Positions 8,966 through 64,000 of a stretch of 64,000 nucleotides of DNA are shown piece after piece (positions within the stretch are counted from its first letter, which is position 1; each line of letters opens with the position of its first letter). The notes below the pieces were generated by a model. The model was not told the origin of the DNA and made no database searches. It saw nothing but the letters and a program-made list of their open reading frames with translations. Position numbers and translations under genes: made by a program. The stretch is from Polytrichum commune (Eukaryota > Streptophyta > Polytrichopsida > Polytrichales > Polytrichaceae): contig OX485804.1 of the NCBI GenBank assembly GCA_950295325.1, forward strand, positions 4,464,001 to 4,528,000, in the 5' to 3' direction.

Positions 8966-9229
8966 CGACCATGCAATTTTTGTAGGGCCTCTATAGCACA
9001 ATGTATTGGTTATAACAATGTGAATGCACCAACACCAAGGAGGCCCAAAATAATTGAGGGAACTGTAGGATCTAAAATAGGGTCTTCTCATGAGTCCCAC
9101 CAATCTCATTCCCAGATCCGTCTATGCAAAAGCTACTTGGCCCAGTCATTCTAGTATGACAAGCTAGAAAGTCAAAAAAAATTATAGCCCAACACCACCA
9201 AGTTCTTTAGCGTGTATTTCTAAGCCTTA

Positions 9230-9646: not shown

Positions 9647-9649
9647 TTA

Positions 9650-20383: not shown

Positions 20384-20799
20384 GAGCATCCCCACCAGAT
20401 CGGGTATATGCCAAATAGAATATATATTATTTTATACCTTTGGGAAACCCTCCATCTTGGGCGGGGCAGCTCATCTTAAGTCAAAGCCCACCAAAACCTA
20501 GGCATACCCCCAGTATAATTAGGAAGCAATCAATAAGATAACGACACCTATTATCTGACATGGGATAAAGTAGGATATCGGAGTATATGATATTAAAGTA
20601 ATCTCTTGGCGGGCCGGAGGAGTTCCGTTATATGAACCATTTATGGCGGGGGAAGGTCTTTACTATACCCGGACCGGTTCTAAATTATGGGGGACCGGAC
20701 ATTGGTGGGGCTCAATTCATGCCGGTACTGCCACCTAAGAACCTGGGATGCCCCATTTTTGGCGTTGCATGCCCCATCCCCGGTTTGGTGGGGACACTC
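20384..20799. mobile_element. Harbinger-like MITE, GAGC family (416 bp), copy 2
   Basis: It starts GAGCATCCCCACCAGATCGG and ends GGTTTGGTGGGGACACTC, with TTA at 20381-20383 and 20800-20802. It is the reverse-oriented twin of 9230-9646, so both moved recently relative to the other elements here. Confidence 0.85.
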
Positions 20800-20984
20800 T
20801 TACAAACAATATTTGGAGTTAGCGCAACTTGAGCTCTTCCAAACTACAATTGAAGACTCAGGAAAGTCAATGTACATAGAAGAAGAAGTACTTGGACTAC
20901 TGTAGCTCTATAGCAACTTGGGCAAAAAAAAAAGTTAATTTTAAAGGTGCCTAAATGTATGGGAAATTGATTTTTCTGAGTGTC

Positions 20985-35679: not shown

Positions 35680-36312
35680 TAATAGTGATGGGTTGCCAAC
35701 ACATGGTGCACCTACTTGCTCTACACAAGACACTCATTTTTAGATGAACCAAACTTTGTATTTATTAACACCCTTTAAATTAGGTTGGGATGGTTTTAGA
35801 CACCCTTTAAGTATTTTCGGTCACCTCGAGACCGAAGTTGTCCCGGGAGAACTTCAACAACCAATCAGTTGCCTTGCAGAGCCCTGGTCCAACTTCATGG
35901 TCCATAGTGTAAACCGCCCCTAAGAGTGATGGGTTGCCAACACATGGTGCACCTATTTGCTCTACACTAGACACTCATTTTTAGATGAACTAAACTTTGT
36001 ATTTACTAACACCCTTTACATTAGGTTGGGATGGTTTTAGACACCCTTTAAGTATTTTCGGTCACCTCGAGACCGAAGTTGTCCCGGGAGAACTGCAACA
36101 ACCAATCAGCTGCCTTGCAGAGCCCTGGTCCAACTTCATGGTCCATAGTGTAAACCGCCCCTAATAGTGATGGGTTGCCAACACATGGTGAACCTACTTG
36201 CTCTACACAAGACACTCATTTTTAGATGAACTAAACTTTGTATTTACTAACACCCTTTAAATTAGGTTGGGATGGTTTTAGACACCCTTTAAGTATTTTC
36301 GGTCACCTCGAG
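35591..36312. repeat. Tandem array of three 241-bp units
   Basis: Units start CCGAAGTT at 35591, 35832 and 36073, exactly 241 bp apart. Each unit contains the right-terminal 90 bp of the Harbinger-like element (through GTAAACCGCCCC) plus about 150 bp of flanking DNA ending GGTCACCTCGAGA. The repeat therefore amplified the element-flank junction, including the TAA site. Confidence 0.9.
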
Positions 36313-36526
36313 ACAAGGAGCCGACACCACAAGGGTCATTCTAAAGGGGTTGATCTCATCCAATGATATGAATGAGCTTATATGGATGATTTAACTTGAG
36401 TGCCACGAATCCCCGGCTGGGATTCGTGGCACTCATGTATTTTCATTAGTGAGAGTTCATTCATCTTTGCGGATGAGATGAACCACTTTAGACAGTACCT
36501 CACGTTGTCGGCTCCTTGTCTCAAGG
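36311..36526. mobile_element. Fold-back element carrying back-to-back MULE-like end motifs
   Basis: The outer arms are GAGACAAGGAGCCGAC and GTCGGCTCCTTGTCTC. The centre is GAGTGCCACGAATCCCCGG followed by GGGATTCGTGGCACTC, an inverted pair matching the outermost bases of the long-TIR element at 21886-37778. Arms match imperfectly between these two zones. Confidence 0.7.
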
Positions 36527-43628: not shown

Positions 43629-46176
43629 AGATGAGGCAATTCCCAAGCTGATCCATCAGCTATAAAAGTATGTGGAGTTGGATGAACCCATAATAGGGCC
43701 ACATACCTGTAGACAACTGCCACCAGATTTTACTGGTACAAGATATCCACACCTGATCGTGGTTTAGAACTGAAATATCGATTTTCAAATTAGAACGAGA
43801 CCTAGAAATATCATTTTCACAACCCATACTGTTCTTTTGGTCCACCTGCAACCAAATATTTACCATTACAGAGTTCACCTCTCGGCAAAGAATAAACTAA
43901 CAATCTGCATGTGATTGGAAGCAGGGCAGCTCAAGATACATGTATCCATCCAGTTGGAACTTCATTCATGGACATATTTTAAGGAAGAATCGGTAAATCC
44001 TAAATGCATTGTGTTGGTGCCACTCAATTTTTATTCACATCAAAATTGCAGATAGAAGTGCATCACATTCCCTTCATAACATGTGATTTTCTACACTGCT
44101 GACTAACTCTGGTGTGGAAGGCTGCAGCAACATGTTCGTAGGCCCATGTTGTTTGGGTGTAACTAATTGGACCTTGAACCTTGAAACCTTGATTGTCCGA
44201 TGGACCAGCCTCACGAAAACTGCCACTACCTCCATTCAACAGCTTTGCCACACTTGTAACAGAGTAGTCTGAGATCCCGAATCGTATGATGTTTGAAAAT
44301 GGTACAAGGTCTATCATTTCAGACTCAGCCTCTGATTGAACCCTAAATTTTAACCCTAAACCCTACACCCTAATTTTCCGGGTATGTGGACGAATTCGGG
44401 TCCAAAACTTTTCCAGGTTAACTTTTTCCAGTTTGTTCAATGAGTTTTCCAAGAGGACTGATTCTTTGTTGCATCAAAACGAACGGCAGAAAGATTCCAG
44501 CTACAAAGTCATGAATCAACAGATAACGAGCTCAACAACATACTGATTTGCAAAACTATCACCTAAGACTTCGAAATATTCACTCAAGCCAAAACCCTAA
44601 ATTATAAACGTCCGACGTGTGGATTGCTTATGGTCCAAAACTTCCAGGTCAACAATTCCAGTTCGTCTATTGAGTTGTTCATTAGTGCTGATTACTTCTG
44701 TGTTTAGAAATTTAAATGAATGACAAAAAGATTCCAACTACATAGTTATGAATCAACACATGACGTCTGTCTTTTCTGGGCAGTTTGATTTCAATGCAAG
44801 GTTCGGCCAGACCTTTTGATCACCAACCCAGACAGCAGTTAGACTTTTAATCCGGTGAGCTCGAATTCCACAAAATTTGTCAAGAGCACCGATGACAACG
44901 CCCTCCAACAATCACAGGTACCAATGCAAGTCCATGGTGCAGTGGCGAAGGTCGACTATCACCAGCTAACCCGGTCCATGGTATGTCACAGGCATGCCAC
45001 CAAAATCACGATACTTTGAGAATGTAACTAGACATGACTTTTCGTTGGAAGCTAGTTGTTTAGCATACAACACCGTCCATGTTCGGTAAGCTTCCGGTGC
45101 ACGCTTGGAGGTAGTGTGGAGATATAGAACAATCGGTAACTATATCGACTCAATATGCATCAAACTCATTTTGGCATCTATGAGGTGCTTGGATGAGTTT
45201 AGCCCTCCACGAACCAAAATAGGAGGGGCTGCTTCCACGTTCACAAGAATTTTGAATGTGAATCATAAGCTAACAAAAATTGATGATGGGTTTGTGTGAA
45301 TCCAAATGGCAATTCACACTATGTGAATCAAACACATTCTAACACACTAGGGTCATGCCACATACATTGGTAACAAGGGGTCACATGAACTCAACACTAT
45401 TAACCATGTGAACATCAACCCAATTGCCTTAACCTTCAATTGTCCACCACTTTTCATACTATTAAAGTCGGATATGCCAACGGATGATGTCCGAACTAGT
45501 TGGTGTGATCAGCCCCTCAGTTGTCTCCTTGCACATCCGCCCGGATTGGTCCCTTCCATGATGACTAGCTTTCCCGAGTTGCAAGCAAGTTGTTCGGCTA
45601 GTGTATGTTTCCCCCCCAAATGCTTGGTTTAATTTTGAAAGGGAAACTGCTCTTGTAGCTTATGTGGGTAGTGGAATACTAACCAACACTTAAAGTATAT
45701 TTGACCAAACCACTTGTCCAAAAAAGAAAGAAAGAGAAGTGCATTTGTGGGGGCAAAAACATCAAACAACCACAACAAAAACAACAATACAACAACCACG
45801 ACTTCAATGTTTGTATTCCATGTTCGCCAACCACGAAATATGTGTAGTTCTGCAATCTTATGTATGTAACATTGGCGGTTGAAATCGTGCAACATTCATG
45901 CATAAGTCCAAATACACTTAGATCCTAGTTACACTATGTTCTCTGTTCATGTACTATATCCCACATAACAGTCATGTATGTTTCAACTTCACAAGTGGGC
46001 AACATCGACATAGGGTCAAATGCCCAAAAACACAATATTCATTAAAATGAGAGTCTTCCAGTGAATTGAGAGTACATAAAGCAAACTATTTATCCAAGAA
46101 TGAAATGAAAACCACTGGAAAGTTGTAGAGTACAAGTTAAAAAATACCATTTGATTTTCCGCCGTAAATTCCACCG
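43629..46176. other. No gene recognised
   Basis: Contains a short CCCTAAA-type tract at 44338-44375. Minus-strand frames at 44063-44317 and 45629-45895 resemble no known family. Confidence 0.4.
44338..44375 (-). repeat. Degenerate CCCTAAA tract
   Basis: ACCCTAAATTTTAACCCTAA and CCCTACACCCTAA: four imperfect units of the plant telomere type on the minus strand. It is too short and imperfect to be a true interstitial telomere; a telo-box or chance are alternatives. Confidence 0.45.
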
Positions 46177-46178
46177 TA

Positions 46179-46369
46179 GTTTCCATTAAAATGAGAGTAT
46201 GTTAAGCTGGGAAATCGACTCAATTAGGTCGACTCAACCTAAATTGACAACATATTGTCCTCATTTAGGTCAACTCAAGCTAAATTGACAACATAATGTC
46301 CTCATTTAGGTCGACTCAACCTAAATGAGTCGATATCCCAACTTAACATACTCTCATTTTAATGGAAAC
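46179..46369. mobile_element. Stowaway-like MITE (191 bp)
   Basis: The left end GTTTCCATTAAAATGAGAG and right end CTCTCATTTTAATGGAAAC form TIRs of about 45 bp that continue through GTATGTTAAG and ATCGACTCA. TA flanks it at 46177-46178 and 46370-46371, as in Tc1/mariner-type MITEs, although these ends are not the canonical Stowaway CTCCCTCCGT. An internal unit around GTCCTCATTTAGGTC is repeated twice. A partial copy lies near 46042. Confidence 0.85.
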
Positions 46370-47480
46370 TACACGTCTGAAGTATAATCTGGTATTTATC
46401 AACCTATCATGACTTTTCGGTGTCCAAATGGCCAAGATTATTTTGAGAGGATCCCACTCTCTCAAAATATTGAATATCGTGTTCAAAATGGAATATGTTC
46501 CGTGCAACCTTCTCAGTTGAACTTTGTAACTTGGATAATCAAAATACTGACTTTGCATTATTTACCATGGGCACGTGCAATTAGCTGCTAATAATGGTCT
46601 ACAAGTTCATTAAAGTATAGACTTCAAAATATTTAAGGTCATGATATCTACGTCTAAAACCATAATAAACTATTAACTTTTAAGTAGTATTTTTAATGAT
46701 AAGTTATTGAAGATCTCATCTTGATATTTTATATTTGAGTACCTAACACAACAACCAAGGGTACCATGAAAAAAAATCCAATTTAAACAGTATTTTGCTA
46801 CTACTTTTAGGTGTTTGACTAAATAATATATGGTATTGTGTATCCGAGCACTTTTTTCGTATGCTTGGTCCCATTTCTTAGGAATGACCAAAGTCATACC
46901 AACATTGGAAGACATCTTGGTAATTGAAGCCAATAGCTATGACGAATGAGTGTTCGCTTCCACCCACAGCTTCCAAAAATTATGATATTCAATTATTTTG
47001 GGAGTTTAGTGTATTATCATGGTGTTCCCCGACGAGACTAGCATGGCAATACTAATAACCCCGGTATAATTTTATTTTTCTTCACATCTTTACTTCATTG
47101 CAGTAGGAATGACTTCGTTAAAATGAAATATTTGTTCTACATACCCTAGCAATTATGAACCTTTTCATAAATCAAGTTTAACGGGGCATATGCAATAAAA
47201 TATCAAGCGTCTGCCTCTTTCCTAAAATAATGGACAACCATCTCTAAGAACAATTCTTGCTCATTTTGCCCATTTCATTTAGAAACAATTTGTACTAGAA
47301 AATCATTGTGGATAGTATTATTGAAGTGACAAAAATGGGGATAGAGTATCCTATATCCAAGGTGTGTGACCCATGTTTCATGAATATACTCACATAAGCT
47401 TGCTTACGAAATAACTCCAAGTAACTTTTTACCAAGTTTAACATGCTTTCATGATATTTATTGAAATCATGTAATAAATT
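46370..47480. other. No gene recognised
   Basis: AT-rich stretch up to the outer edge of the palindrome. Confidence 0.4.
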
Positions 47481-47839
47481 CTTATGCATCGAGCAGAGTT
47501 TACCACGCTCGTACAGGTGTAGTCTGAAGGGTCTTCATCTCAATCTTTTATCCATCTCACCAAATATGACATCAAGATTTTGGTGGTATGTTTGAAAGCT
47601 TGACATGTAGATTGTAAATTTTAAAAAATTCTGATATTTCATTCGGATGCGAAACGATTGGAAGGGCCGGAGAGGGAGCGTCACATTATTGCAAGATCAG
47701 GAACAGGGCCATTGGGATAAGCGGGTTGCGTCGCAGAATATACGACAGAATCCTAAATTGTACTAAGTTGGACATCAGTTCAATTTCTTTCTTTATTGTT
47801 TTAAAAAATGAATACTCACCTTTCGTCCTCCGTATGAGT

Positions 47840-48260
47840 AATGTTAATATATGGAGGTTCAGTGCCTTCTTGTAAGATTGATCCTCCTTCGTATCAATTT
47901 TCGAAGTGTTAAATTAGTGATGCACATCCCAGCACTACATGTCGATAAATGGCATCGGAAGTCATACTTAAATGTGCAGAGTAATAAAATATTCGCACTC
48001 CTCTTGTCAGCAACTCGTGCTGAAATATTGTCATGGATGATTGAAATTTTGGTGAAAATATATTTGGTAAGTGATAGTAATTGCAACATGGTAAATCTAT
48101 AATCGTAAATCTATAATCGCCCCCAAAAATGATAAGGAATGGTGAATAATAAGGGTTAACATTTTAGTGGTAGTGACACTATACCATGGTTTACGACTAG
48201 TATTGATGAGAATACTAATTGTACCTACATTATGATGGTCTGAACCTACATGCCTGAAAA
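47840..48260. mobile_element. Family B-related element fragment, left arm
   Basis: Ordered blocks match 1790-2000 on the opposite strand (a CCATGACAATATTTC segment, a GTTGCTGACAAGAG-like segment, AACCATGG). No clear termini. The mirror copy is at about 61975-62395. Confidence 0.5.
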
Positions 48261-48725
48261 AACCTCAATTATGCACAAGTATATTTGTCTGACAAAGAAG
48301 TCTAGTATGCCATGTTTCATTCAACGGATTCATTCGAACAAATCTCTCATCGACTAGTGAAGCCTGCATATGCAAATGAAATTACATCCGACGGACATTG
48401 ATGAGAATACCGTCGTGGACATACTTCTTTAACCGTATTGGCATCATATGATATTTCTTAAAACATACAGTCTGAAGAACTAAGATTATATACATCGTAT
48501 TTATTTGTTTGAAAAAGGAACTCTGGTATGGTGCGTAATTCCATCTGTCGGAGCATTTGAACAACTGGCTAAGCTAGCGAGGCCTGCACATGCAAATGCA
48601 TTACATTTCACAAACATCAACACTCATTCACAAGAATATTACAGCGGAATTGTCGATGTTTCCTTAACCTCACACATGACACACACCTCAAACTGAACAT
48701 AGAGTCTGAAGAACTACGATTTTGC
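48255..48725. repeat. Tandem duplication in the expansin 3' flank, left arm
   Basis: Mirror of 61510-61980: two units of about 236 bp containing AGTCTGAAGAACTA and a GCATTTGCATGTGCAGG-like block. Confidence 0.75.
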
Positions 48726-48906
48726 ACAACAGTCTAAAGAACTACAATCCCCTACGGTAAAGCACAATAATTGTCTGCGTCACGCCTTCTGTTTCCTACA
48801 GGTGGCACAACCCGACCCCAAATTCCAGGCTGACAAGGAACTGTACAGACTTTGCATCGAAGACTGCCTATGAACATCTAACTAATCTATGGAAGCCCAA
48901 ATGGAC

Positions 48907-49719
48907 CTAGTATTCAAACTGCACATTGGAGACATATTCCTTCCCCGGCGTGAAGGAGTCGGGGATAGTTTCTGTGGCCACGACGGCATGTTTATGCAAC
49001 CTGGCCGTGACCATGATATCGAAAGGGCCCTTCAAGGGGCGGCCACTGGGGGGAGTGGCGACGTAGTTGACACCCCAGTCATGTCGCATGGTGATGAAGC
49101 CGCTGGCGCCTTTCTCCCGGATGGCCACGCTCTCGATGTCGCCGGATCCTGCCGTATAGCGCACCGAGAGCGCGAGCCAGAAAGGACTGGAGCCGGCGTC
49201 TACCCGGAAGGCGATCGTCTGGTTTGCGAACATGCAGGGGACGCGCTTGTACTTAATGTTGTACAGACCGATGTTGCGAAGCTCGGCGTCTTTGCCCGGG
49301 AGCGCCATGCTGCTGATGGCGTCGCCGCTGAGGTCGAACGCGGGCTCCCCCGTGCTACAGTAGGTGCCACCGGGGCACTCGTCGGTGATGACGATCCGAA
49401 TGGGGTTGGGCATGCAGGAGGAGTAGGTGCACACCATATCGTAGCATTGGCCACACCCCTTGCCTTTTGCGAAGATAGGTGAGCTTCCCGCTGCAATCGC
49501 ACTGCCGTAGGGAGAGCCGGTGAGCTTCGTAAATCCGCATGCACCCCCGCTCGAGCCTTCCCCGTGCGGATCCCCGTACCAAGTCGCGTGCCCGGGTCTC
49601 CATCCCTCGTCGTACCCGAACTGTGACAAGTTCCCGCACAACGCTCCTCTCGGGATACCAAACGCAGCATAGCTCACCACCACCATCACCACTAAGAGCT
49701 CCCTGCGAAACGCAGGCAT
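48907..49719 (-). CDS. Beta-expansin, left-arm copy
   Basis: The product is identical in all 270 residues to the copy at 60516-61328, described there in full. It is a secreted wall-loosening protein with an N-terminal signal, a double-psi beta-barrel domain (TWYGDP, CGQCYDMVC, ITDEC, FDLSG) and a C-terminal grass-pollen-allergen-type domain. The ATG at 49719 is preceded in frame only by a TTG at 49770, so I start at 49719. Transcription runs outward, away from the palindrome centre, and its 5' flank is identical to that of its twin. No intron interrupts it. Confidence 0.95.
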   Translation of the reverse strand: MPAFRRELLVVMVVVSYAAFGIPRGALCGNLSQFGYDEGWRPGHATWYGDPHGEGSSGGACGFTKLTGSPYGSAIAAGSSPIFAKGKGCGQCYDMVCTYSSCMPNPIRIVITDECPGGTYCSTGEPAFDLSGDAISSMALPGKDAELRNIGLYNIKYKRVPCMFANQTIAFRVDAGSSPFWLALSVRYTAGSGDIESVAIREKGASGFITMRHDWGVNYVATPPSGRPLKGPFDIMVTARLHKHAVVATETIPDSFTPGKEYVSNVQFEY

Positions 49720-49830
49720 CTTGAATCCGTTCGCTGAATGCTGTATGATTCTGCAAGTGGCTGCCCACAAGATAGATCGAGACAGTTAATCGCGCCGCTC
49801 TGTGACACAAGCAGCTTCTCACATTTTCCC

Positions 49831-49838
49831 TCTATATC
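49831..49838 (-). promoter_or_regulatory. Possible TATA element of the left expansin
   Basis: GATATAGA about 112 bp upstream of the ATG, mirrored in the other arm. It is a weak match and the only candidate close to the gene. Confidence 0.2.
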
Positions 49839-50756
49839 ACAGATTTGACAAGTTACGAGGCTATATTCACACAGGTGCCACCCTATTCAGAAGCAAATAT
49901 AACTCACATGCACTCTACTCAAGCCCTAGATAATTAAAACACTAACCCAGGCGCTGCTGCCATAGGACAACTAAAAATAATTAGTGTAGCTTGCAACCTT
50001 CATGAAATTGAGCTGGCACTTGTGTGTAGTCATCTTACCAAAGGAGTAATTCAAGAGTTGTGCACACACCTACGAGAAGTATCGCCACAAACTGTCTCAA
50101 AATGTGAACCCAGAACCCCTCTCAAACTCCAAGAATTGAGCTATGAAGCCGAATCTGCAGACGTTTCTACCATACACTTCCCTTCCCTCACGGGGTTCCA
50201 GAAAATTGACAAATCCCAATCTTGTCTTCAATGTCTTTGTTTGTCAACTTCTTCCAAACCCAAAGTTGTGTGGAGCCTTGTCGTTGCGACTGCACAACAT
50301 CTGTACTCCGAGAGGATCAGCGTATGCACGCCCGTTCAATAAGTTTCTGCTAGGTCCTCAAAGTTGGGTCAACATCCATGCTCAATCAATTTGTCACCCA
50401 CATCTGTGTCGAAATTTCAAGGGAAAACTCTAGCTACGCTCACAGTGAAGAAACAGAAATTTGATGCAGAAATGAACTCCCAAAGTTTGCAGATCGCTGC
50501 TCCGAACACTGCCGCAGACAGGCTCATAGAATTTTCAGACACCACGAGCGCAACAGAAGAGAGCCCAGATTTAGAGAGTTCATGAGTTTGCATACAGCGT
50601 GCCGGCGGTGCCTCTAGACGCCTTCCCAAAACGGGTCAGCCACGCCCCTGCCACTTGTCAGGCAGAAGGCCAAAATTCCCCGACATGTAAAGAACCATTC
50701 CCCCACCCGCCCGCCCGACCAATACAGAAACATTCCTCTCCTCACAGGGAAGTTTG
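49839..50756. other. Expansin upstream region, left arm
   Basis: About 0.9 kb without a transposon signature and somewhat richer in GC than its surroundings. It is identical in the two arms as far as I compared and probably includes promoter and 5' UTR. Frames here are short and unrecognised. Confidence 0.45.
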
Positions 50757-50790
50757 TGGGCATAGTCGGCCAAGATCCTAGTGATTCAGT
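50757..50790 (+). repeat. Repeat family E start fragment
   Basis: GGGCATAGTCGGCCAAGATC and a following CTAGTGATTCAG match the first 30 bp of 39266-39475. Mirrored near 59446-59478. Confidence 0.45.
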
Positions 50791-51099
50791 CTACTACTAC
50801 TAGGAGTGTAAAATCTATCCAATCTTGCAAACATGATGCCAACACACACACCCACAAAATGATGTCAAGCACTTGTGTGGGCGTATAACAAGGGATGCTT
50901 CACTTTCATCATATTGGCCATGACCTCATATGTGAACCACAAGATCTTGATAAGTCCTAAAAAGAACCACAAACACACACATAGAGATACATCTCATCAA
51001 ACCCACCCCCAAAACATTCAACATTAAATTTTCCAAGGCATGGAAATCCGCCCCCAAAAACACAAATCCCCCCCCCCAATAACACAACGCTTCCTCTAC

Positions 51100-52577
51100 C
51101 TCCCACTTACAACTACATACACGCCCTCAAATACCACCCACAACAATGCATATATATGGATGGATCATTTATTCCGCCTTCCAAAAACCCTGAGGGTCAA
51201 ATTGAGTGCAACGCTATGGGCTCAGGAGTATATAGCCCCAACAACAACACCAAGATCGCAGAAAGGCTACCAGGCTACCAAAACATCCTAAGAGTTGAAC
51301 TGAACGCAATACTCATAGCTATTAAAACTATACAAAATACCCAAGGAGAAACACATATATTCACAGATAGACTCAACAGCATGTACCTAATCAACAACCA
51401 CATACAACACCCAACTTCTCAACACCACCACCCAGACAAACTACTCATAGCAGCCATCATACACCAAATATAGTGGACCCGACATATGATCCACATACAC
51501 AAAGTACGAGCACACACAGGCATTAGTGGAAACGAAAAGGCAGACATACTAGCCAATGAGGGGACACTTAAAGATAAACCAAACACTACGCCACGCATTC
51601 ACATAGCCCACTCCACCCCCTTTTGGCTAGCTAGCTACCCCATAGCCACACATGATGGTGCCATTCGTAACCTCCACACATTCATAGCAAAAGAACACGA
51701 AAATCGCGAAACTGCACTAGCCAAAAGTAAATTCCCGTGTGTAGACAAATGGCTAAACAACGACCAAATCAACCAAAAGCTTTCTAACCACTTCTGGAAA
51801 GACGACAAAATACATGACACACAAGTTACCCAAACTCTAAAATTCAGATATGCCCAATACATGGGTAACCATAGAAAAAAAATATTTTGGCCCCTTAAGT
51901 ATCAAAACCCCAATTGTACACTATGTTGCACCAACGACAAAGACACATGGCCCCACCTACTATCGACATGCGAACACCCATACCTAAAAGGATTACGAAT
52001 TGCTAGACATAACAAAGCAGTCCACCTCATCACCCAGACCCTACAAGCCAATAAAAACACCTGATTCTTCACCTTGACCAACGCAGGCAGAATAACCAAC
52101 CAACCCCCAGACCCAACAGTCCCAGAATGGCTTCTCAAATGTACATGCACACAAAGTACATGCCAATGCCAAGCGAAATTAAGACCAGACATAATGTGCA
52201 TCATTGGAGCCCCCAACCAAATGCAAGTACCCATACTACCCTCCTCTAGCTACACTGTCCAATTCATAGAATTCACATACTGCCATGATTGATTCCCGGA
52301 ACAAGCTCGCACCCACAAACACACCAAATATGACCCACTAATCACTACATTACAAAACAATGGCTGGCAGACCAACCCCCTCGTCACCATCACAACTGGA
52401 GTAAGGGGAGCTATACACAAAAACTCCATAGAACAACTAATCAAACTCAAAGTCCCGAAAGCTTACACCAAAGCCCTCATGAAGAACATACACCAAAATG
52501 CCATCAAATACCTTACTTACCTGGTCCTAAACAAAAGAAAACTTGACAACAAACAAACCCATGTCCCCCCACCATAA
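51100..52577 (+). pseudogene. LINE ORF2 fragment: RNase H, CCHC and possible RLE domain, left arm
   Basis: One frame (codons at positions divisible by 3) runs to a TAA at 52575 with three internal stops. A type I RNase H domain is complete in key residues: Asp of YMDGSF (51159), Glu of VELNAIL (51297), Asp of IFTDRL (51366), then RAHTGISGNEKAD ending in the last Asp (51543). A CTLC-x9-H-x4-C knuckle lies near 51915. Further on, RPDIMC (52182) and IEFTYC (52269), then KYDPLITTLQNNGW and TTGVRG segments, recall PD-(D/E)xK restriction-like endonucleases. The stops (TAG 51471, TGA 52062, TGA 52290) all fit C-to-T change from CAG or CGA. The reverse transcriptase is missing, so the copy is 5' truncated. 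Confidence 0.8.
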
Positions 52578-53013
52578 GGTGGGAGACCACCTCCCCCCCC
52601 CCCCCCCCCCTATATACCACAACAGAGCCCACCTCCCAACGGAGGCATAACACCCTATACTGCATTACGCGACACCGTGATTAGTACAGGGTCAACGGGC
52701 TCAAATTCACACCAGTATAAATACACATGCGTTATCTTTTCTTTTCTTTCTGAACCTCGAACAAGTTTACAAAGCAAGGACTAGGACAAGTGTTATTGCC
52801 GTGCTACTACCTCATGTCTCAAGTGGCCTCTTATGATTTCATGTTTGTGGTTGTACACCTCATATCCTTATCCATACCCATGGCAATGAACCCACACCAA
52901 TGAACTTTGACTACCTCTAGAATAGGCATAAGTACTTCATATCTAGAAATTTAAGCACACACACATTGATGGTCCTCTCCATTCCGTTATCCATATTTTT
53001 TAAAAATAAAAAT
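52578..53013. other. LINE 3' UTR region and C-run, left arm
   Basis: Contains a CACCTC-C18 run at 52593-52610 and a 64-bp segment (about 52842-52905) that is also present at 54595-54658, 56183-56247 and 57338-57402. Confidence 0.6.
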
Positions 53014-53386
53014 TACTACATTGAATATTGTATATAGTGTCATGTGGTAATTTATGTCACTCTGGTAACTTCTCTATTGACACTTCTTATGTGTAAGTTT
53101 ACAATTATTGTCACCCTAACTTACTTAGTTCATCCACTTCTGGTACATTATGCAACCTAACAATTTTGTAATGAAATGTAGTCGTGAATGTTTGAAATTG
53201 GGATGAAAAGACATTTAGAATTGACAATCATTGCAAAATTGCAATTTTACCTTTCCCAAAAAGATTACAAGGAATGACAAATAATGTTAGGTTATCATTA
53301 GTGTTGCTGACACTGCACCGATGGTTTACAATTAGTATTGAGCAAGACAAATAGATTTGGTGACACCAAATATAATAGTTAGTGTA
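53014..53386. mobile_element. Family B CACTA-like element, left arm
   Basis: Mirror of 56850-57222, with ends CTACATTGAATATTG and, reversed, CTACACTAACTATTA. Confidence 0.65.
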
Positions 53387-53545
53387 GTTGCCCTGACTTA
53401 CTTTATGACTGTTGAATTTTCTCAAATTTTGTTGAAATATAGAGGATATTCTTATTAGATCTTCATAATGGAGCTAGTTTCCACATACAAGTGGTTGACT
53501 ATAAAATATGTTGATGATAGTGGGTTGAATTGCCTCAACATCAAA

Positions 53546-53948
53546 GGGTGGTATGATTGTTCCAAGTTGTTGGAATGCACCTGGTGACAATAAAGGGTTA
53601 ATAAAAGTGAAAGAAAAATGTGAGTTCCCCCATGCACTCTTTGTACATTCTCAGTGAATGTGACCAAATTCATTAGGATAAACTAGGAGAAGCATTTGAC
53701 TTCATCCATATGAGGTTTATAAAGAAAAATAAATTATGAGATGTTTTAAGGTGTGCTTGAGGAATATAAATGATTTCATTCCTCTTGTAGTGTGGCTTCA
53801 TCAATTAGCCATGTAATTTGAGCCTTTGAACTTTTGGATTTTGTAAGGTGAGATGGATGTCACTCCCAAACAAGGGACACGAATATTTATAATTTGGCTT
53901 GAGAACATGCATTATATTCCTTTGTTGGTTGTTCGGTGGGCTCTACAC
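53546..53948 (+). repeat. Contig-end overlap, first copy
   Basis: The 403 bp before the gap recur at 54149-54551 directly after it; I found no mismatch on comparing them. The right arm contains this sequence only once. Confidence 0.92.
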
Positions 53949-54148
53949 NNNNNNNNNNNNNNNNNNNNNNNNNNNNNNNNNNNNNNNNNNNNNNNNNNNN
54001 NNNNNNNNNNNNNNNNNNNNNNNNNNNNNNNNNNNNNNNNNNNNNNNNNNNNNNNNNNNNNNNNNNNNNNNNNNNNNNNNNNNNNNNNNNNNNNNNNNNN
54101 NNNNNNNNNNNNNNNNNNNNNNNNNNNNNNNNNNNNNNNNNNNNNNNN
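53949..54148. other. Assembly gap, 200 N
   Basis: Exactly 200 unknown bases, the usual placeholder for a gap of unknown size. The flanks overlap, so probably no sequence is missing. Confidence 0.98.
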
Positions 54149-54551
54149 GGGTGGTATGATTGTTCCAAGTTGTTGGAATGCACCTGGTGACAATAAAGGG
54201 TTAATAAAAGTGAAAGAAAAATGTGAGTTCCCCCATGCACTCTTTGTACATTCTCAGTGAATGTGACCAAATTCATTAGGATAAACTAGGAGAAGCATTT
54301 GACTTCATCCATATGAGGTTTATAAAGAAAAATAAATTATGAGATGTTTTAAGGTGTGCTTGAGGAATATAAATGATTTCATTCCTCTTGTAGTGTGGCT
54401 TCATCAATTAGCCATGTAATTTGAGCCTTTGAACTTTTGGATTTTGTAAGGTGAGATGGATGTCACTCCCAAACAAGGGACACGAATATTTATAATTTGG
54501 CTTGAGAACATGCATTATATTCCTTTGTTGGTTGTTCGGTGGGCTCTACAC
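54149..54551 (+). repeat. Contig-end overlap, second copy
   Basis: Same 403 bp as 53546-53948, offset 603 bp. Confidence 0.92.
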
Positions 54552-54667
54552 CAATTGTGGTACTCATTTAGTGCACATCACACTACCCATTTCATGTTTG
54601 TGGTTGTACACCTCATATCCTTATCCATACCCATGGCAATGAACCCACACCAAGGTAAAGGATAATC

Positions 54668-55240
54668 CCATACCCATAACACACCTATGAAAGCTTTTAA
54701 TACTGTACCTAAAACACAACTTAACCATCCAAATGTCTCCAATGCAAAGTGGAGGCGGATTTGGGTGAAAAGTGGGGAGGTTGTGGGAAAGTGTGGGGTT
54801 GGTTTTGAGCAAAAGTGGGATTGGGATTTGAGCAAGCATTGGAACATAGCTAGGGGTGGCTCACTTATATGTATAAATAAAGATCCCATCTGCAAAAGTT
54901 ATGCGAGCTCAATTTTCTTATTGGGTGAAAAGTGGGTTTTAGTGTGGAGGCGGTTTTGGGAGAAAACAAGGTTGGATTTTGATGAGAAAAAGAGCATTTT
55001 CAGCAAGTGCTAGGACGGTTTTGTGAGCCGTTTGCAATGGACTTAGTGGGAGTTTAGGGATATATTTAGGAAGCTAGGGATAAGTGACTTTAAAATTTGT
55101 TGTACATTCATATGATGTGCAATTTCTTTTATGTGTGTTTTTACCATGTCTAAGCCAATCATGCATATCACTAATACAAATGGACTTCAAAATTAAGCTA
55201 AATCACTTAGAGTGTTGGTCTAAGTACTAAATCACATTGT
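54668..55240. other. Palindrome spacer, first part
   Basis: Unique DNA between the arms. A block with GGTGAAAAGTGGG and GTGGAGGCGG-type pieces is present twice (near 54720-54800 and 54920-54970). No gene recognised. Confidence 0.5.
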
Positions 55241-56170
55241 TCGGGAAGCAACTACCAACTACAGATATCGGCATCTCCGAATATGCTTTGCACCATTCCT
55301 TACGCCGCCATGGGAATGGGTATGGGCATGAGCACGGGCATGGGCGTGGGCGTGGGCGTGGGCATGGGTATGAGTATGGGTATGGGTATGAGTATGGGTA
55401 TGGGTATGAGTATGGGTATGGGTATGGACATTGCCAAGTGTATAGATATGCATATGAAGTGTACAAAATCTAGCCCAAACATCGTGGGTTGAAGACACTA
55501 TTTAGGATACAATAAGGTGAATGGACCTAAAATGGACATTATTATTTTTAGCTTTGCACCCACTTCTCTTAAGCTACTAAACAAGCAATTTGCACGAGAT
55601 GATGATTACTACAACCAACTATCAGGATTGACATCTCCAGGTCATATGCTTTGCACCATCCTTTACCAATGGTATAGGTGTGGGTATGAGCATTGTTTAA
55701 GGTATGGATATGGCTATGAAGTGGACAACCTCTAGCATCCAAATATTGCGGGTACAATGTTATAAGGTAAGTTGGCCCAAATGGGTGTGTTTAACTCTGC
55801 ATAACATATTGAACAATTGATTAGTATGAGATGGTGACTTATACAACCAAATAGAGATCGGCATCTCCCATATCACTTTTGACCCAAGCACATGGACGAC
55901 CACGGGTATGGGTATGGGTACGGGTATCGGTACCTGTATGAGTTGTCTTTGTGTATGGTCATGTTACGATAAGGGTCTTAAGTGAACAACCTCTTGTATC
56001 CAAATAATGTGTGTTCAAGTACTATTTAGAATAAAATAAAGTAAGTAGGCTTAAAAACCTACACTTAAGCTATGAACCCGGAGCTTCTCCTAGGGTATTA
56101 CATATGCGTTTAGTATAAGGTGATGAGTAGTACACCCAATTATTGAGATTGGTATCTTTGGATATGCCCG
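55241..56170. repeat. Diverged tandem array in the palindrome spacer
   Basis: Four units of about 240-360 bp begin near 55250, 55605, 55840 and 56140. Each has a GG-CATCTCC-like block, a TTTGCACCATCCTTTACC-like block, a GGTATG-rich segment and AACCTCT-AGCATCCAAATA. The right palindrome arm begins inside the fourth unit. Confidence 0.7.
55305..55432. repeat. Hexanucleotide minisatellite (GGGTAT/GGGCAT/GGGCGT)
   Basis: About twenty units of GGNNAT and GGGCGT type within the first spacer monomer. Open frames of MG or HTHT repeats in every phase are products of this repeat, not genes. Confidence 0.95.
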
Positions 56171-56182
56171 CCATCATCCTTT

Positions 56183-57402
56183 ACCTTGGTGTGGGTTCAT
56201 TGCCATGGGTATGGATAAGGATATGAGGTGTACAACCACAAACATGAAATGGGTAGTGTGATGTGCACTAAATGAGTACCACAATTGGTGTAGAGCCCAC
56301 CGAACAACCAACAAAGGAATATAATGCATGTTCTCAAGCCAAATTATAAATATTCGTGTCCCTTGTTTGGGAGTGACATCCATCTCACCTTACAAAATCC
56401 AAAAGTTCAAAGGCTCAAATTACATGGCTAATTGATGAAGCCACACTACAAGAGGAATGAAATCATTTATATTCCTCAAGCACACCTTAAAACATCTCAT
56501 AATTTATTTTTCTTTATAAACCTCATATGGATGAAGTCAAATGCTTCTCCTAGTTTATCCTAATGAATTTGGTCGCATTCACTGAGAATGTACAAAGAGT
56601 GCATGGGGGAACTCACATTTTTCTTTCACTTTTATTAACCCTTTATTGTCACCAGGTGCATTCCAACAACTTGGAACAATCATACCACCCTTTGATGTTG
56701 AGGCAATTCAACCCACTATCATCAACATATTTTATAGTCAACCACTTGTATGTGGAAACTAGCTCCATTATGAAGATCTAATAAGAATATCCTCTATATT
56801 TCAACAAAATTTGAGAAAATTCAACAGTCATAAAGTAAGTCAGGGCAACTACACTAACTATTATATTTGGTGTCACCAAATCTATTTGTCTTGCTCAATA
56901 CTAATTGTAAACCATCGGTGCAGTGTCAGCAACACTAATGATAACCTAACATTATTTGTCATTCCTTGTAATCTTTTTGGGAAAGGTAAAATTGCAATTT
57001 TGCAATGATTGTCAATTCTAAATGTCTTTTCATCCCAATTTCAAACATTCACGACTACATTTCATTACAAAATTGTTAGGTTGCATAATGTACCAGAAGT
57101 GGATGAACTAAGTAAGTTAGGGTGACAATAATTGTAAACTTACACATAAGAAGTGTCAATAGAGAAGTTACCAGAGTGACATAAATTACCACATGACACT
57201 ATATACAATATTCAATGTAGTAATTTTTATTTTTAAAAAATATGGATAACGGAATGGAGAGGACCATCAATGTGTGTGTGCTTAAATTTCTAGATATGAA
57301 GTACTTATGCCTATTCTAGAGGTAGTCAAAGTTCATTGGTGTGGGTTCATTGCCATGGGTATGGATAAGGATATGAGGTGTACAACCACAAACATGAAAT
57401 CA
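56183..57402. repeat. 64-bp direct repeat flanking a 1.09-kb block
   Basis: A segment starting TGGTGTGGGTTCATTGCCAT and ending CAACCACAAACATGAAAT lies at 56183-56247 and again at 57338-57402. The first copy is embedded in the spacer satellite and the second adjoins the LINE 3' region. The block between contains the family B element. Confidence 0.8.
56850..57222. mobile_element. Family B CACTA-like element, right arm
   Basis: The left end CTACACTAACTATTATATTT and the right end, read in reverse, CTACATTGAATATTGTATAT form imperfect TIRs of about 27 bp. The interior matches 1749-2128. Confidence 0.7.
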
Positions 57403-57657
57403 TAAGAGGCCACTTGAGACATGAGGTAGTAGCACGGCAATAACACTTGTCCTAGTCCTTGCTTTGTAAACTTGTTCGAGGTTCAGAAAGAAAAGAAAAG
57501 ATAACGCATGTGTATTTATACTGGTGTGAATTTGAGCCCGTTGACCCTGTACTAATCACGGTGTCGCGTAATGCAGTATAGGGTGTTATGCCTCCGTTGG
57601 GAGGTGGGCTCTGTTGTGGTATATAGGGGGGGGGGGGGGGGGAGGTGGTCTCCCACC

Positions 57658-59135
57658 TTATGGTGGGGGGACATGGGTTTGTTTGTTGTCAAGTTTTCTT
57701 TTGTTTAGGACCAGGTAAGTAAGGTATTTGATGGCATTTTGGTGTATGTTCTTCATGAGGGCTTTGGTGTAAGCTTTCGGGACTTTGAGTTTGATTAGTT
57801 GTTCTATGGAGTTTTTGTGTATAGCTCCCCTTACTCCAGTTGTGATGGTGACGAGGGGGTTGGTCTGCCAGCCATTGTTTTGTAATGTAGTGATTAGTGG
57901 GTCATATTTGGTGTGTTTGTGGGTGCGAGCTTGTTCCGGGAATCAATCATGGCAGTATGTGAATTCTATGAATTGGACAGTGTAGCTAGAGGAGGGTAGT
58001 ATGGGTACTTGCATTTGGTTGGGGGCTCCAATGATGCACATTATGTCTGGTCTTAATTTCGCTTGGCATTGGCATGTACTTTGTGTGCATGTACATTTGA
58101 GAAGCCATTCTGGGACTATTGGGTCTGGGGGTTGGTTGGTTATTCTGCCTGCGTTGGTCAAGGTGAAGAATCAGGTGTTTTTATTGGCTTGTAGGGTCTG
58201 GGTGATGAGGTGGACTGCTTTGTTATGTCTAGCAATTCGTAATCCTTTTAGGTATGGGTGTTCGCATGTCGATAGTAGGTGGGGCCATGTGTCTTTGTCG
58301 TTGGTGCAACATAGTGTACAATTGGGGTTTTGATACTTAAGGGGCCAAAATATTTTTTTTCTATGGTTACCCATGTATTGGGCATATCTGAATTTTAGAG
58401 TTTGGGTAACTTGTGTGTCATGTATTTTGTCGTCTTTCCAGAAGTGGTTAGAAAGCTTTTGGTTGATTTGGTCGTTGTTTAGCCATTTGTCTACACACGG
58501 GAATTTACTTTTGGCTAGTGCAGTTTCGCGATTTTCGTGTTCTTTTGCTATGAATGTGTGGAGGTTACGAATGGCACCATCATGTGTGGCTATGGGGTAG
58601 CTAGCTAGCCAAAAGGGGGTGGAGTGGGCTATGTGAATGCGTGGCGTAGTGTTTGGTTTATCTTTAAGTGTCCCCTCATTGGCTAGTATGTCTGCCTTTT
58701 CGTTTCCACTAATGCCTGTGTGTGCTCGTACTTTGTGTATGTGGATCATATGTCGGGTCCACTATATTTGGTGTATGATGGCTGCTATGAGTAGTTTGTC
58801 TGGGTGGTGGTGTTGAGAAGTTGGGTGTTGTATGTGGTTGTTGATTAGGTACATGCTGTTGAGTCTATCTGTGAATATATGTGTTTCTCCTTGGGTATTT
58901 TGTATAGTTTTAATAGCTATGAGTATTGCGTTCAGTTCAACTCTTAGGATGTTTTGGTAGCCTGGTAGCCTTTCTGCGATCTTGGTGTTGTTGTTGGGGC
59001 TATATACTCCTGAGCCCATAGCGTTGCACTCAATTTGACCCTCAGGGTTTTTGGAAGGCGGAATAAATGATCCATCCATATATATGCATTGTTGTGGGTG
59101 GTATTTGAGGGCGTGTATGTAGTTGTAAGTGGGAG
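57658..59135 (-). pseudogene. LINE ORF2 fragment, right arm
   Basis: Mirror of 51100-52577, with the same RNase H, CCHC and possible restriction-like domains and the same three in-frame stops. One residue differs (Val-Pro-Glu context, PPDP followed by Ile here against Thr in the left arm, near 58112). Shared stops show that the decay preceded the arm duplication or was homogenised afterward. Confidence 0.8.
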
Positions 59136-59478
59136 GTAGAGGAAGCGTTGTGTTATTGGGGGGGGGGATTTGTGTTTTTGGGGGCGGATTTCCATGCCTT
59201 GGAAAATTTAATGTTGAATGTTTTGGGGGTGGGTTTGATGAGATGTATCTCTATGTGTGTGTTTGTGGTTCTTTTTAGGACTTATCAAGATCTTGTGGTT
59301 CACATATGAGGTCATGGCCAATATGATGAAAGTGAAGCATCCCTTGTTATACGCCCACACAAGTGCTTGACATCATTTTGTGGGTGTGTGTGTTGGCATC
59401 ATGTTTGCAAGATTGGATAGATTTTACACTCCTAGTAGTAGTAGACTGAATCACTAGGATCTTGGCCGACTATGCCCA

Positions 59479-60396
59479 CAAACTTCCCTGTGAGGAGAGG
59501 AATGTTTCTGTATTGGTCGGGCGGGCGGGTGGGGGAATGGTTCTTTACATGTCGGGGAATTTTGGCCTTCTGCCTGACAAGTGGCAGGGGCGTGGCTGAC
59601 CCGTTTTGGGAAGGCGTCTAGAGGCACCGCCGGCACGCTGTATGCAAACTCATGAACTCTCTAAATCTGGGCTCTCTTCTGTTGCGCTCGTGGTGTCTGA
59701 AAATTCTATGAGCCTGTCTGCGGCAGTGTTCGGAGCAGCGATCTGCAAACTTTGGGAGTTCATTTCTGCATCAAATTTCTGTTTCTTCACTGTGAGCGTA
59801 GCTAGAGTTTTCCCTTGAAATTTCGACACAGATGTGGGTGACAAATTGATTGAGCATGGATGTTGACCCAACTTTGAGGACCTAGCAGAAACTTATTGAA
59901 CGGGCGTGCATACGCTGATCCTCTCGGAGTACAGATGTTGTGCAGTCGCAACGACAAGGCTCCACACAACTTTGGGTTTGGAAGAAGTTGACAAACAAAG
60001 ACATTGAAGACAAGATTGGGATTTGTCAATTTTCTGGAACCCCGTGAGGGAAGGGAAGTGTATGGTAGAAACGTCTGCAGATTCGGCTTCATAGCTCAAT
60101 TCTTGGAGTTTGAGAGGGGTTCTGGGTTCACATTTTGAGACAGTTTGTGGCGATACTTCTCGTAGGTGTGTGCACAACTCTTGAATTACTCCTTTGGTAA
60201 GATGACTACACACAAGTGCCAGCTCAATTTCATGAAGGTTGCAAGCTACACTAATTATTTTTAGTTGTCCTATGGCAGCAGCGCCTGGGTTAGTGTTTTA
60301 ATTATCTAGGGCTTGAGTAGAGTGCATGTGAGTTATATTTGCTTCTGAATAGGGTGGCACCTGTGTGAATATAGCCTCGTAACTTGTCAAATCTGT
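59479..60396. other. Expansin upstream region, right arm
   Basis: Mirror of 49839-50756. No transposon signature is visible; probably promoter and 5' UTR. Confidence 0.45.
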
Positions 60397-60404
60397 GATA
60401 TAGA
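60397..60404 (+). promoter_or_regulatory. Possible TATA element of the right expansin
   Basis: GATATAGA about 112 bp before the ATG; a weak candidate. Confidence 0.2.
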
Positions 60405-60515
60405 GGGAAAATGTGAGAAGCTGCTTGTGTCACAGAGCGGCGCGATTAACTGTCTCGATCTATCTTGTGGGCAGCCACTTGCAGAATCATACAGCATTCA
60501 GCGAACGGATTCAAG

Positions 60516-61328
60516 ATGCCTGCGTTTCGCAGGGAGCTCTTAGTGGTGATGGTGGTGGTGAGCTATGCTGCGTTTGGTATCCCGAGAGGAGCGTTGTGCG
60601 GGAACTTGTCACAGTTCGGGTACGACGAGGGATGGAGACCCGGGCACGCGACTTGGTACGGGGATCCGCACGGGGAAGGCTCGAGCGGGGGTGCATGCGG
60701 ATTTACGAAGCTCACCGGCTCTCCCTACGGCAGTGCGATTGCAGCGGGAAGCTCACCTATCTTCGCAAAAGGCAAGGGGTGTGGCCAATGCTACGATATG
60801 GTGTGCACCTACTCCTCCTGCATGCCCAACCCCATTCGGATCGTCATCACCGACGAGTGCCCCGGTGGCACCTACTGTAGCACGGGGGAGCCCGCGTTCG
60901 ACCTCAGCGGCGACGCCATCAGCAGCATGGCGCTCCCGGGCAAAGACGCCGAGCTTCGCAACATCGGTCTGTACAACATTAAGTACAAGCGCGTCCCCTG
61001 CATGTTCGCAAACCAGACGATCGCCTTCCGGGTAGACGCCGGCTCCAGTCCTTTCTGGCTCGCGCTCTCGGTGCGCTATACGGCAGGATCCGGCGACATC
61101 GAGAGCGTGGCCATCCGGGAGAAAGGCGCCAGCGGCTTCATCACCATGCGACATGACTGGGGTGTCAACTACGTCGCCACTCCCCCCAGTGGCCGCCCCT
61201 TGAAGGGCCCTTTCGATATCATGGTCACGGCCAGGTTGCATAAACATGCCGTCGTGGCCACAGAAACTATCCCCGACTCCTTCACGCCGGGGAAGGAATA
61301 TGTCTCCAATGTGCAGTTTGAATACTAG
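60516..61328 (+). CDS. Beta-expansin, right-arm copy
   Basis: Expansins are secreted and loosen plant cell walls without hydrolysing them. The 270-residue ORF has a signal peptide (about residues 1-28, hydrophobic VVMVVVSYAAF), then domain 1, a six-stranded double-psi beta-barrel related to GH45, with ATWYGDP (45-51), GGACGF (58-63), CGQCYDMVC (89-97), ITDEC (111-115) and FDLSG (128-132); Asp113 and Asp129 are the family's conserved acids. Domain 2 (from about 165, with FWLALSVRY) is the CBM63 type. The GACGF, ITDECPGG-x-YC and FDLSG patterns favour EXPB over EXPA. The usual His of the HFD motif is Ala127 here. No intron is present. I start at the ATG at 60516, which has a following signal peptide; the frame is also open upstream to a TTG at 60465. 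Its inverted twin is at 48907-49719. Confidence 0.96.
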   Translation: MPAFRRELLVVMVVVSYAAFGIPRGALCGNLSQFGYDEGWRPGHATWYGDPHGEGSSGGACGFTKLTGSPYGSAIAAGSSPIFAKGKGCGQCYDMVCTYSSCMPNPIRIVITDECPGGTYCSTGEPAFDLSGDAISSMALPGKDAELRNIGLYNIKYKRVPCMFANQTIAFRVDAGSSPFWLALSVRYTAGSGDIESVAIREKGASGFITMRHDWGVNYVATPPSGRPLKGPFDIMVTARLHKHAVVATETIPDSFTPGKEYVSNVQFEY

Positions 61329-61509
61329 GTCCATTTGGGCTTCCATAGATTAGTTAGATGTTCATAGGCAGTCTTCGATGCAAAGTCTGTACAGTTCCTT
61401 GTCAGCCTGGAATTTGGGGTCGGGTTGTGCCACCTGTAGGAAACAGAAGGCGTGACGCAGACAATTATTGTGCTTTACCGTAGGGGATTGTAGTTCTTTA
61501 GACTGTTGT

Positions 61510-61980
61510 GCAAAATCGTAGTTCTTCAGACTCTATGTTCAGTTTGAGGTGTGTGTCATGTGTGAGGTTAAGGAAACATCGACAATTCCGCTGTAATATT
61601 CTTGTGAATGAGTGTTGATGTTTGTGAAATGTAATGCATTTGCATGTGCAGGCCTCGCTAGCTTAGCCAGTTGTTCAAATGCTCCGACAGATGGAATTAC
61701 GCACCATACCAGAGTTCCTTTTTCAAACAAATAAATACGATGTATATAATCTTAGTTCTTCAGACTGTATGTTTTAAGAAATATCATATGATGCCAATAC
61801 GGTTAAAGAAGTATGTCCACGACGGTATTCTCATCAATGTCCGTCGGATGTAATTTCATTTGCATATGCAGGCTTCACTAGTCGATGAGAGATTTGTTCG
61901 AATGAATCCGTTGAATGAAACATGGCATACTAGACTTCTTTGTCAGACAAATATACTTGTGCATAATTGAGGTTTTTTCA
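61510..61980. repeat. Tandem duplication downstream of the expansin, right arm
   Basis: Two units of about 236 bp: TAGTTCTTCAGACTCTATG (61520) and TTAGTTCTTCAGACTGTATG (61751) begin matching runs that include TGTAATGCATTTGCATGTGC and TGTAATTTCATTTGCATATG. Divergence is considerable, so the duplication is older than the palindrome. Confidence 0.75.
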
Positions 61981-62395
61981 GGCATGTAGGTTCAGACCAT
62001 CATAATGTAGGTACAATTAGTATTCTCATCAATACTAGTCGTAAACCATGGTATAGTGTCACTACCACTAAAATGTTAACCCTTATTATTCACCATTCCT
62101 TATCATTTTTGGGGGCGATTATAGATTTACGATTATAGATTTACCATGTTGCAATTACTATCACTTACCAAATATATTTTCACCAAAATTTCAATCATCC
62201 ATGACAATATTTCAGCACGAGTTGCTGACAAGAGGAGTGCGAATATTTTATTACTCTGCACATTTAAGTATGACTTCCGATGCCATTTATCGACATGTAG
62301 TGCTGGGATGTGCATCACTAATTTAACACTTCGAAAATTGATACGAAGGAGGATCAATCTTACAAGAAGGCACTGAACCTCCATATATTAACATT
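61975..62395. mobile_element. Family B-related element fragment, right arm
   Basis: Mirror of 47840-48260; shares TTCACCATTCCTTATCATTT-like and CATCCATGACAATATTTC blocks with the element at 1749-2128. Confidence 0.5.
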
Positions 62396-62754
62396 ACTCA
62401 TACGGAGGACGAAAGGTGAGTATTCATTTTTTAAAACAATAAAGAAAGAAATTGAACTGATGTCCAACTTAGTACAATTTAGGATTCTGTCGTATATTCT
62501 GCGACGCAACCCGCTTATCCCAATGGCCCTGTTCCTGATCTTGCAATAATGTGACGCTCCCTCTCCGGCCCTTCCAATCGTTTCGCATCCGAATGAAATA
62601 TCAGAATTTTTTAAAATTTACAATCTACATGTCAAGCTTTCAAACATACCACCAAAATCTTGATGTCATATTTGGTGAGATGGATAAAAGATTGAGACGA
62701 AGACCCTTCAGATTACACCTGTACGAGCGTGATAAACTCTGCTCGGTGCACAAG

Positions 62755-64000
62755 GATTGAAGTTACCCTGCATGGATACGAGACACAAAAAGAGTTTAGG
62801 GTTGAGAACAGCATCGAGATGATTGCAACGATGCTCACAGAAGATGTACTCTCCGTTTAAATGGCAACCAAGTTGTGGTAGTCGTCAGACTTGCGAAGCT
62901 GTCAATTTCAAACGAAGAGTCGGGAAACTAGGAAAACTCCTTGTTTCCTGAAATCATGTATATGGCACAGCTATGACTCGAATCCCTTCCATCAATGTTT
63001 TCACACCCTTGGAAGGCGCTCTTAAGGGCCGTGCAAGAATATCAAGAGAAAAATAAAACAATTAAGGAAATATTGTCGTTACAAAAAATGTCCAAACTGT
63101 GGAAAGGATCAGTGCTAAAGTGGCGTCACCGCAGGAGATAAGGATTTGCAACCAAGTAAGCATACAGACGAGTGAAATCAGAAAAAGGAATTTTCATGTA
63201 AGGAGAAATCTAGGCTGCACATGAAACTTGAAATGGCAGTCCTCGCCTTTATATTCGACCTACGACACACATGACCAGCATGAATGCCGACACACAGTCT
63301 AACAAAATATAGAGGAGCTTGCGCGGGCGGCGAGCCATAACTTCGGCACGCGCCCGGGTTTCTCGTCCTGTCCCTGGTTCCTGACTTAAAAGATCTACAT
63401 GCTCACTTGGACACCCTTAGATGTACCCCTGCTCAAACCTTTTACTGTTACCATCATTTCCTTTTATGATCCTACATCAACCCCGAAACCCCAGTATTTA
63501 AATCATTAACCTCAACACAAAATAAAGAAGCGAACAAGAAAATGAGAAGATCACATATTTTCACCTTACATTCAAGGAGACTACTTTCGCTGCATATGTC
63601 CACATGTTACCAAATGTGAACTGCATTGATTCAGAGCAAGATTATGCGTACGACCATATGCAATGAACCACGATTTACAAAGTTATCCCCACTTCCCTCT
63701 AATCTGGAAGTAACAAAGCCACTTCACACAAAGCCCAGCAGTTCTCAATACCCAAACAAGTTTTAAACGGAAGGGAAGATAAACCGCGAAACTGTCAAAG
63801 ATTTGGGTCGAGATACTCGCACTCGAGCACCACCACGCCAAGTCTCCAGCAAGCGTCGATAGACATACTCACAGATCAAGCGATGCGCAACGAAATCACT
63901 ACAGACTCGACCTACATACAAAGAAGCCACTTAGCTTTGTACTAAGCTGGTGTTTTGTAACACGGATACGAGTGAACGAAAACCTCCGCTTCATATAAGC
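62755..64000. other. Right flank of the palindrome, no gene recognised
   Basis: Unrelated to the DNA left of 47481. A GC-rich patch (GCGCGGGCGGCGAGCC) lies near 63321. No frame of note. Confidence 0.4.

Follow-up and report, generated by a model that had tools for sequence, protein, structure and literature searches.

A probably old inverted duplication carrying twin beta-expansin genes in Polytrichum commune, its arms likely homogenised recently

Long inverted arms that are almost identical may have arisen recently, may be old arms of which one overwrote the other, or may have been created by assembly. This question is raised by a palindrome carrying one beta-expansin gene in each arm, located in a 64,000 bp stretch of the Polytrichum commune genome (assembly GCA_950295325.1, contig OX485804.1, designated C2; C2:4464001-4528000, hereafter the window, whose own positions are used unless a contig is named). 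Our analysis of the window and its relatives, with genome searches covering 408 Mb in 64 contigs, suggests that the palindrome is an old inverted duplication that was probably homogenised recently by arm-to-arm gene conversion.

A single large inverted repeat was found in the window by self-BLAST. Positions 47477-53948 matched 62758-56288 with 99.86% identity (6,472 columns, 8 mismatches and 1 gap) and, beyond a run of 200 Ns, the arm continued as 54149-54666 against 56690-56173 with 99.6% identity (518 columns, 2 mismatches). The self-BLAST and an alignment of the two arms delimited the following features:

47477-54666 (+): left palindrome arm, approximately 6,587 bp without the gap and a 403-bp duplicate
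54667-56172: spacer, 1,506 bp
56173-62758 (-): right palindrome arm, 6,586 bp
47477-47537: outer edge of the left arm, with six transitions relative to the right arm within 47480-47537
62698-62758: outer edge of the right arm, counterpart of 47477-47537

The palindrome with arms of about 6.6 kb and a 1.5-kb spacer that the first-pass annotation had described was therefore borne out. Its long inverted arms of more than 99% identity, short spacer and genes within the arms are among the features by which gene-converting palindromes are recognised, and we regard it as very likely to be real. Within the spacer, 54681-55227 matched a genome-wide repeat of approximately 550 bp, and 55232-56172 was common to an older downstream relative, P3.

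The two arms differed by nine substitutions, all of which were transitions, and by the length of one poly-C tract (18 in the left arm and 17 in the right, at 52593). Six of the transitions were located at the outer edge (47480, 47484, 47489, 47503, 47522 and 47537; 6/58 sites, 10%), and the rest of the arms contained three substitutions (52117, 53661 and 54664) in approximately 6,526 bp (0.05%), with no difference for 4.58 kb from 47537 to 52117. Under an even spread, at least six of the ten differences would fall within 58 bp with a binomial probability of ~1e-10, in a test that was chosen post hoc. If two changes in three are transitions, nine out of nine would be so with a probability of 0.026, so little weight was placed on this. 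The first-pass annotation had counted five outer differences, all transitions, which is correct from its starting point of 47481, the sixth being 1 bp outside. The near identity that it reported for the arms was confirmed, and the three internal substitutions and the poly-C difference were additional to what it had claimed. The taper in similarity towards the ends that it proposed was present at the outer end but not at the inner end, which was sharp.

Three sets of relatives, P1, P2 and P3, were found within approximately 130 kb of the palindrome on C2, in both orientations and approximately 3-14% diverged from it. They make up a local cluster, beyond the window, in which pieces of the palindrome and its left flank occur as older duplicates (C2:4444359-4451459, 4529527-4530644 and 4556374-4575960). 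The sequences flanking the palindrome were as follows:

45263-47482 (+): left flank, 84-88% identical to P1 at C2:4444359-4446392 except for an inserted repeat; homology to P1 stops at the arm edge, 47482
62759-64000: right flank, without similarity to the left flank

P1 is upstream and in direct orientation; in addition to the part that matched the left flank, a second part (C2:4450605-4451459) matched arm positions 48231-49054, including approximately the last 50 codons of the expansin gene. As P1 has the left flank followed by arm sequence, the order at the left arm is old too. P3 is downstream (C2:4529527-4530644) and matches, in order, arm 50849-50938, arm 52751-52901 (with a final 65 bp identical to the inner arm end) and the right spacer part as far as 55232. 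Its alignment spans the junction between the right arm and the spacer (56172/56173) into the arm, which argues that inverted arm sequence adjoined the right spacer part before P3 split off. Taken together, these alignments indicate that inverted arm sequence was probably in place on either side well before the arms grew so alike. P2, further downstream and inverted (C2:4556374-4575960), contained pieces of arm 49960-54593 followed by the left spacer part, the pieces being 5-13% diverged. P2 was considered weaker evidence because it has 272 bp of other sequence in place of 69 bp of the arm and does not continue into the right spacer part. At 53661 P2 has C, as does the right arm, so it is probably the left arm that changed at this site.

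Substitutions between P1 and the window amounted to 200/1,607 (12.4%) in the flank and 61/819 (7.4%) in the arm. For P3 there were 14/169 (8.3%) in the two arm stretches, 2/77 in the inner 77 bp, 46/848 (5.4%) in the spacer part, with 95 gap columns in short repeats left out, and 12/271 (4.4%) in two spacer stretches free of short repeats. The divergence of the outer edges of the palindrome, 6/58, was of the same order as these P1 and P3 splits.

Both arms contained a 1.8-kb insertion at the same site:

50939-52750 (+): LINE-like insertion in the left arm, with a 6-bp TGAACC target duplication; the matching site in P3 has no insertion
57486-59296 (-): LINE-like insertion in the right arm, coordinates from the arm alignment

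We call the insertion LINE-like, provisionally, because it is a genome-wide repeat (76-89% identity among the best 40 of 2,633 candidates) with a weak RNase H match under the Pfam cut-off. Two copies of TGAACC bracket the insertion in the arm, and the corresponding site of P3 has TGAACC once and no insertion. This indicates that the insertion is later than the P3 split and, as it occupies the same site in both arms, that one arm received it as a copy from the other.

The simplest account of these alignments would be the recent homogenisation of an old palindrome. An old inverted duplication within the local cluster would have produced the palindrome, the arms of which would then have diverged to approximately 10%. 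More recently, one arm would have been overwritten by the other over nearly all of the 6.6 kb, through long-tract gene conversion or an equivalent homology-templated repair, and both the beta-expansin gene and the LINE-like insertion would lie in the copied tract. The ~58 bp at the outer edge, adjoining the end of homology, would have escaped overwriting. Inverted arms can pair within one chromatid or between sister chromatids, and when a break in one arm is mended with the other arm as template, long stretches are copied. The pattern could come from a single 6.5-kb tract or from a few tracts, and the copying would end close to where homology ceases, sparing the 58-bp edge. We infer conversion as the process, in one or a few events; its direction was, weakly, from left to right, and a benefit to the expansin genes may be supposed. 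A higher divergence of P3 in the arm than in the spacer would be expected if the left arm had overwritten the right. This contrast was dropped as proof of direction since it was not significant (Fisher p 0.10, or 0.06 with the inner 77 bp added, the chosen spacer stretches being 4.0-4.4% diverged).

An error of assembly would explain near-identical arms without any such event, either as a fold-back or as the tandem joining, across the run of Ns, of two haplotypes of an inverted segment, and the left arm does contain a contig break, which the first-pass annotation had overlooked together with an exact direct duplication:

53546-53948: terminal 403 bp of the left contig; left-arm T at 53661
53949-54148: 200-N assembly gap within the left arm
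54149-54551: initial 403 bp of the right contig, a second copy of 53546-53948, with T at 54264

The gap was the sole run of Ns across 158 kb joined from adjacent stretches, and the 403 bp before it was repeated exactly, in direct orientation, after it. The natural reading of this arrangement is that two contigs overlap by 403 bp. In both contigs the overlap has the base of the left arm, T at 53661 and at its twin 54264, where the right arm has C; the right contig therefore begins with left-arm sequence and alone spans both sides of the spacer. This contig holds the spacer between 518-bp inverted copies that differ at two sites, which argues against an artefact of joining, as do the order of left flank and arm and the right junction, both of which were seen again in the older relatives. 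The flanks are not mirror images of each other. A fold-back with mirrored flanks was rejected, as similarity stops at 47477/62758 and the flanks are unrelated, in agreement with the first-pass annotation, which had argued that the palindrome was not a fold-back error. A genome search with 62690-64000, in which very common words were skipped and both of the two candidates were scored, returned two matches only, the query itself and 69 bp at the left arm edge. The best 40 of 3,557 candidates for a query of the left flank and outer arm comprised the query itself, the right arm, P1, numerous copies of a repeat of approximately 455 bp and one short stretch (80%) on contig C1. An assembly error is, on this evidence, quite unlikely. 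The locus shows that a contig break can hide within a palindrome of a chromosome-scale assembly.

A recent one-step inverted duplication is a lesser possibility, though more probable than an assembly error. Its outer breakpoint would lie in approximately 60-80 bp of diverged inverted homology and its inner breakpoint in 65 bp of homology by the spacer, and a full older right arm would never have existed. The step from 10% to near zero at 47537/47538 has no gradient and would fit such a breakpoint, the outer edge then being a short inverted homology that had already diverged, with the inner edge falling within a 65-bp repeat. Arm-to-arm conversion, which the first-pass annotation had read from the taper, was supported mainly by the older relatives, but the taper alone also fits a recent duplication with a breakpoint in short older inverted homology. 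P3 joins the spacer to two stretches of arm in arm order (52751-52901, including the 65-bp repeat, and 50849-50938), which argues that more than a short edge homology adjoined the spacer earlier. As P3 contains only approximately 240 bp of older right-arm sequence, a duplication that used an incomplete older right arm as its anchor would still fit. The 65-bp repeats bound a block of approximately 1.09 kb at the inner end of each arm:

52901-54588: counterpart of the block in the left arm, split by the gap and duplicate; 65-bp repeats at 52836-52900 and 54589-54653
56251-57335: block in the right arm, flanked by identical 65-bp direct repeats at 56186-56250 and 57336-57400

This block was present in P2 and not in P3, which has one diverged copy of the 65-bp repeat. 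Several observations weigh against homogenisation of an old palindrome. The inner end is sharp and without a taper, its single difference (54664) being 3 bp from the edge. The excess of P3 arm over spacer divergence is weak, and smaller when the whole spacer is used. P3 retains its arm sequence in two pieces (90 and 151 bp) with no full ancestral right arm, and may have lost the block by a deletion between the flanking 65-bp repeats. Approximately 4 kb of other sequence separates the flank and arm parts of P1 (3.9 kb to the first short tandem copy), and the arm of P1 is closer to the window than its flank, a difference for which either constraint or a separate origin of the arm may account. 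The evidence comes from one genome and from paralogs.

The genes in the two arms were intact and identical:

48907-49719 (-): beta-expansin, 270 aa, intronless, left arm
60516-61328 (+): beta-expansin, identical 270-aa copy, right arm

These open reading frames (ORFs) agree with the two identical intronless beta-expansins of the first-pass annotation, and both face outward from the centre of the palindrome. Beta-expansins are cell-wall-loosening proteins. The predicted protein is a beta-expansin (EXPB), with Pfam matches above cut-off to DPBB_1, Expansin_C and EXPB1_D1 and with 2hcz, beta-expansin 1a, as the nearest solved structure (E 8e-47); the gene has a GC content of 60.5%, and 76% at third positions. 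That the palindrome keeps the two genes identical had also been claimed: the identity was seen, but upkeep would be read from a single genome state that one recent overwrite fits equally. That the palindrome persistently converts its arms, possibly outside a sex-linked region, and so keeps the intronless pair identical is a tentative idea that we would not favour; if it were true, the unconverted older relatives nearby would provide a built-in clock.

The matches to relatives of the gene on contigs C3 and C7 and to two on C1 fell into approximately four pieces, the breaks being near codons 58, 95 and 202, as judged from match pieces rather than transcripts. The palindrome expansin is one ORF with none of these breaks, and two C1 relatives lacked one or two of them. 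Judged likewise, a beta-expansin cluster at C1:1098001-1128000 has members that apparently have one to three of the usual introns, a graded loss. No poly-A tract was seen by eye in ~500 bp of the 3' flank of the expansin. Both retroposition and stepwise intron loss would fit the absence of introns. By a simple method, dN was 0.20-0.35 in all of five expansin pairs; dS was 1.6-2.8 in three of them, near saturation, and not computable in the other two. These values would fit purifying selection in the family and are uninformative on the two copies.

Another explanation for the retention of the inverted pair, compatible with either origin, is that it serves as a source of double-stranded RNA silencing expansins. 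A plant precedent is the soybean I locus, an inverted repeat of a plant gene family, chalcone synthase, in a 27-kb cluster that mediates down-regulation by small interfering RNAs (PMC3804491). Here the genes point outward, such that their own promoters would not read across the spacer, and we consider this role very improbable.

In its working the palindrome would resemble those of the willow W chromosome and the human Y. The human Y palindrome P6, which like the present one has near-identical arms, was inferred to have multi-kb conversion tracts with a mean minimum of 2,068 bp and reaching 9,023 bp, and it also shows rare inversions of the arms (PMC3723533); that study had 378 Y chromosomes of known relationship, compared with one genome here. 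The Salix purpurea W palindromes (PMC7023750) share with ours a plant host, inverted arms of more than 99% identity, a short spacer and genes in the arms, and conversion was inferred there from arms older than their identity suggests, as is probably the case here. They differ in having 20-kb shared stretches within a sex-determining region and a test against a second species, whereas the present palindrome has 6.6-kb arms and evidence from paralogs only. The long inverted repeats of homologous gene pairs in Caenorhabditis elegans (PMC1803023) offer a further likeness: their arms are of kilobase length (at F44E5.4, 2,207 bp with 99.7% identity), their spacers are short, and paralogous genes are paired in inverted orientation, with structure more conserved than sequence; that work concerned a nematode and compared three species, and its authors lean to structural selection besides conversion. 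The plant case of arm-to-arm conversion found in our literature search was the willow sex chromosome. No beta-expansin palindrome was among the matches listed (10 of 372 in one search, 2 of 2 in another), which does not prove its absence from print. At the present locus, the older relatives mark the state before homogenisation, namely the left order, the right junction and the LINE-like site before insertion, and the locus makes conversion versus recent duplication testable.

Other candidate origins and arrangements were considered. No Rfam match at the gathering score was found in 44-64 kb and no tandem array was found at the arm edges, and an RNA-element or tandem-array origin was rejected on these grounds. 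P3 and P2 fit in order and orientation as one older mirror copy of the whole palindrome; this was left as a guess, as P2 stops before the right half of the spacer and the two relatives are 25.8 kb apart, an interval in which no LTR-like long direct repeat was found. The high-copy ~455-bp repeat in the left flank (46029-46484) has internal repeats and was 81-97% identical among the scored full-length or large partial copies; P1 has no copy of it.

Elsewhere in the window, four of the six long ORFs of positions 1-47400 were scanned against Pfam and gave no match. An inverted repeat of 424 bp (92.7% identity) was found at 9229-9652 and 20378-20800, with its copies 11 kb apart, and a unit of approximately 242 bp was present at 35590-36314 as three head-to-tail copies that were ~96-97% identical.

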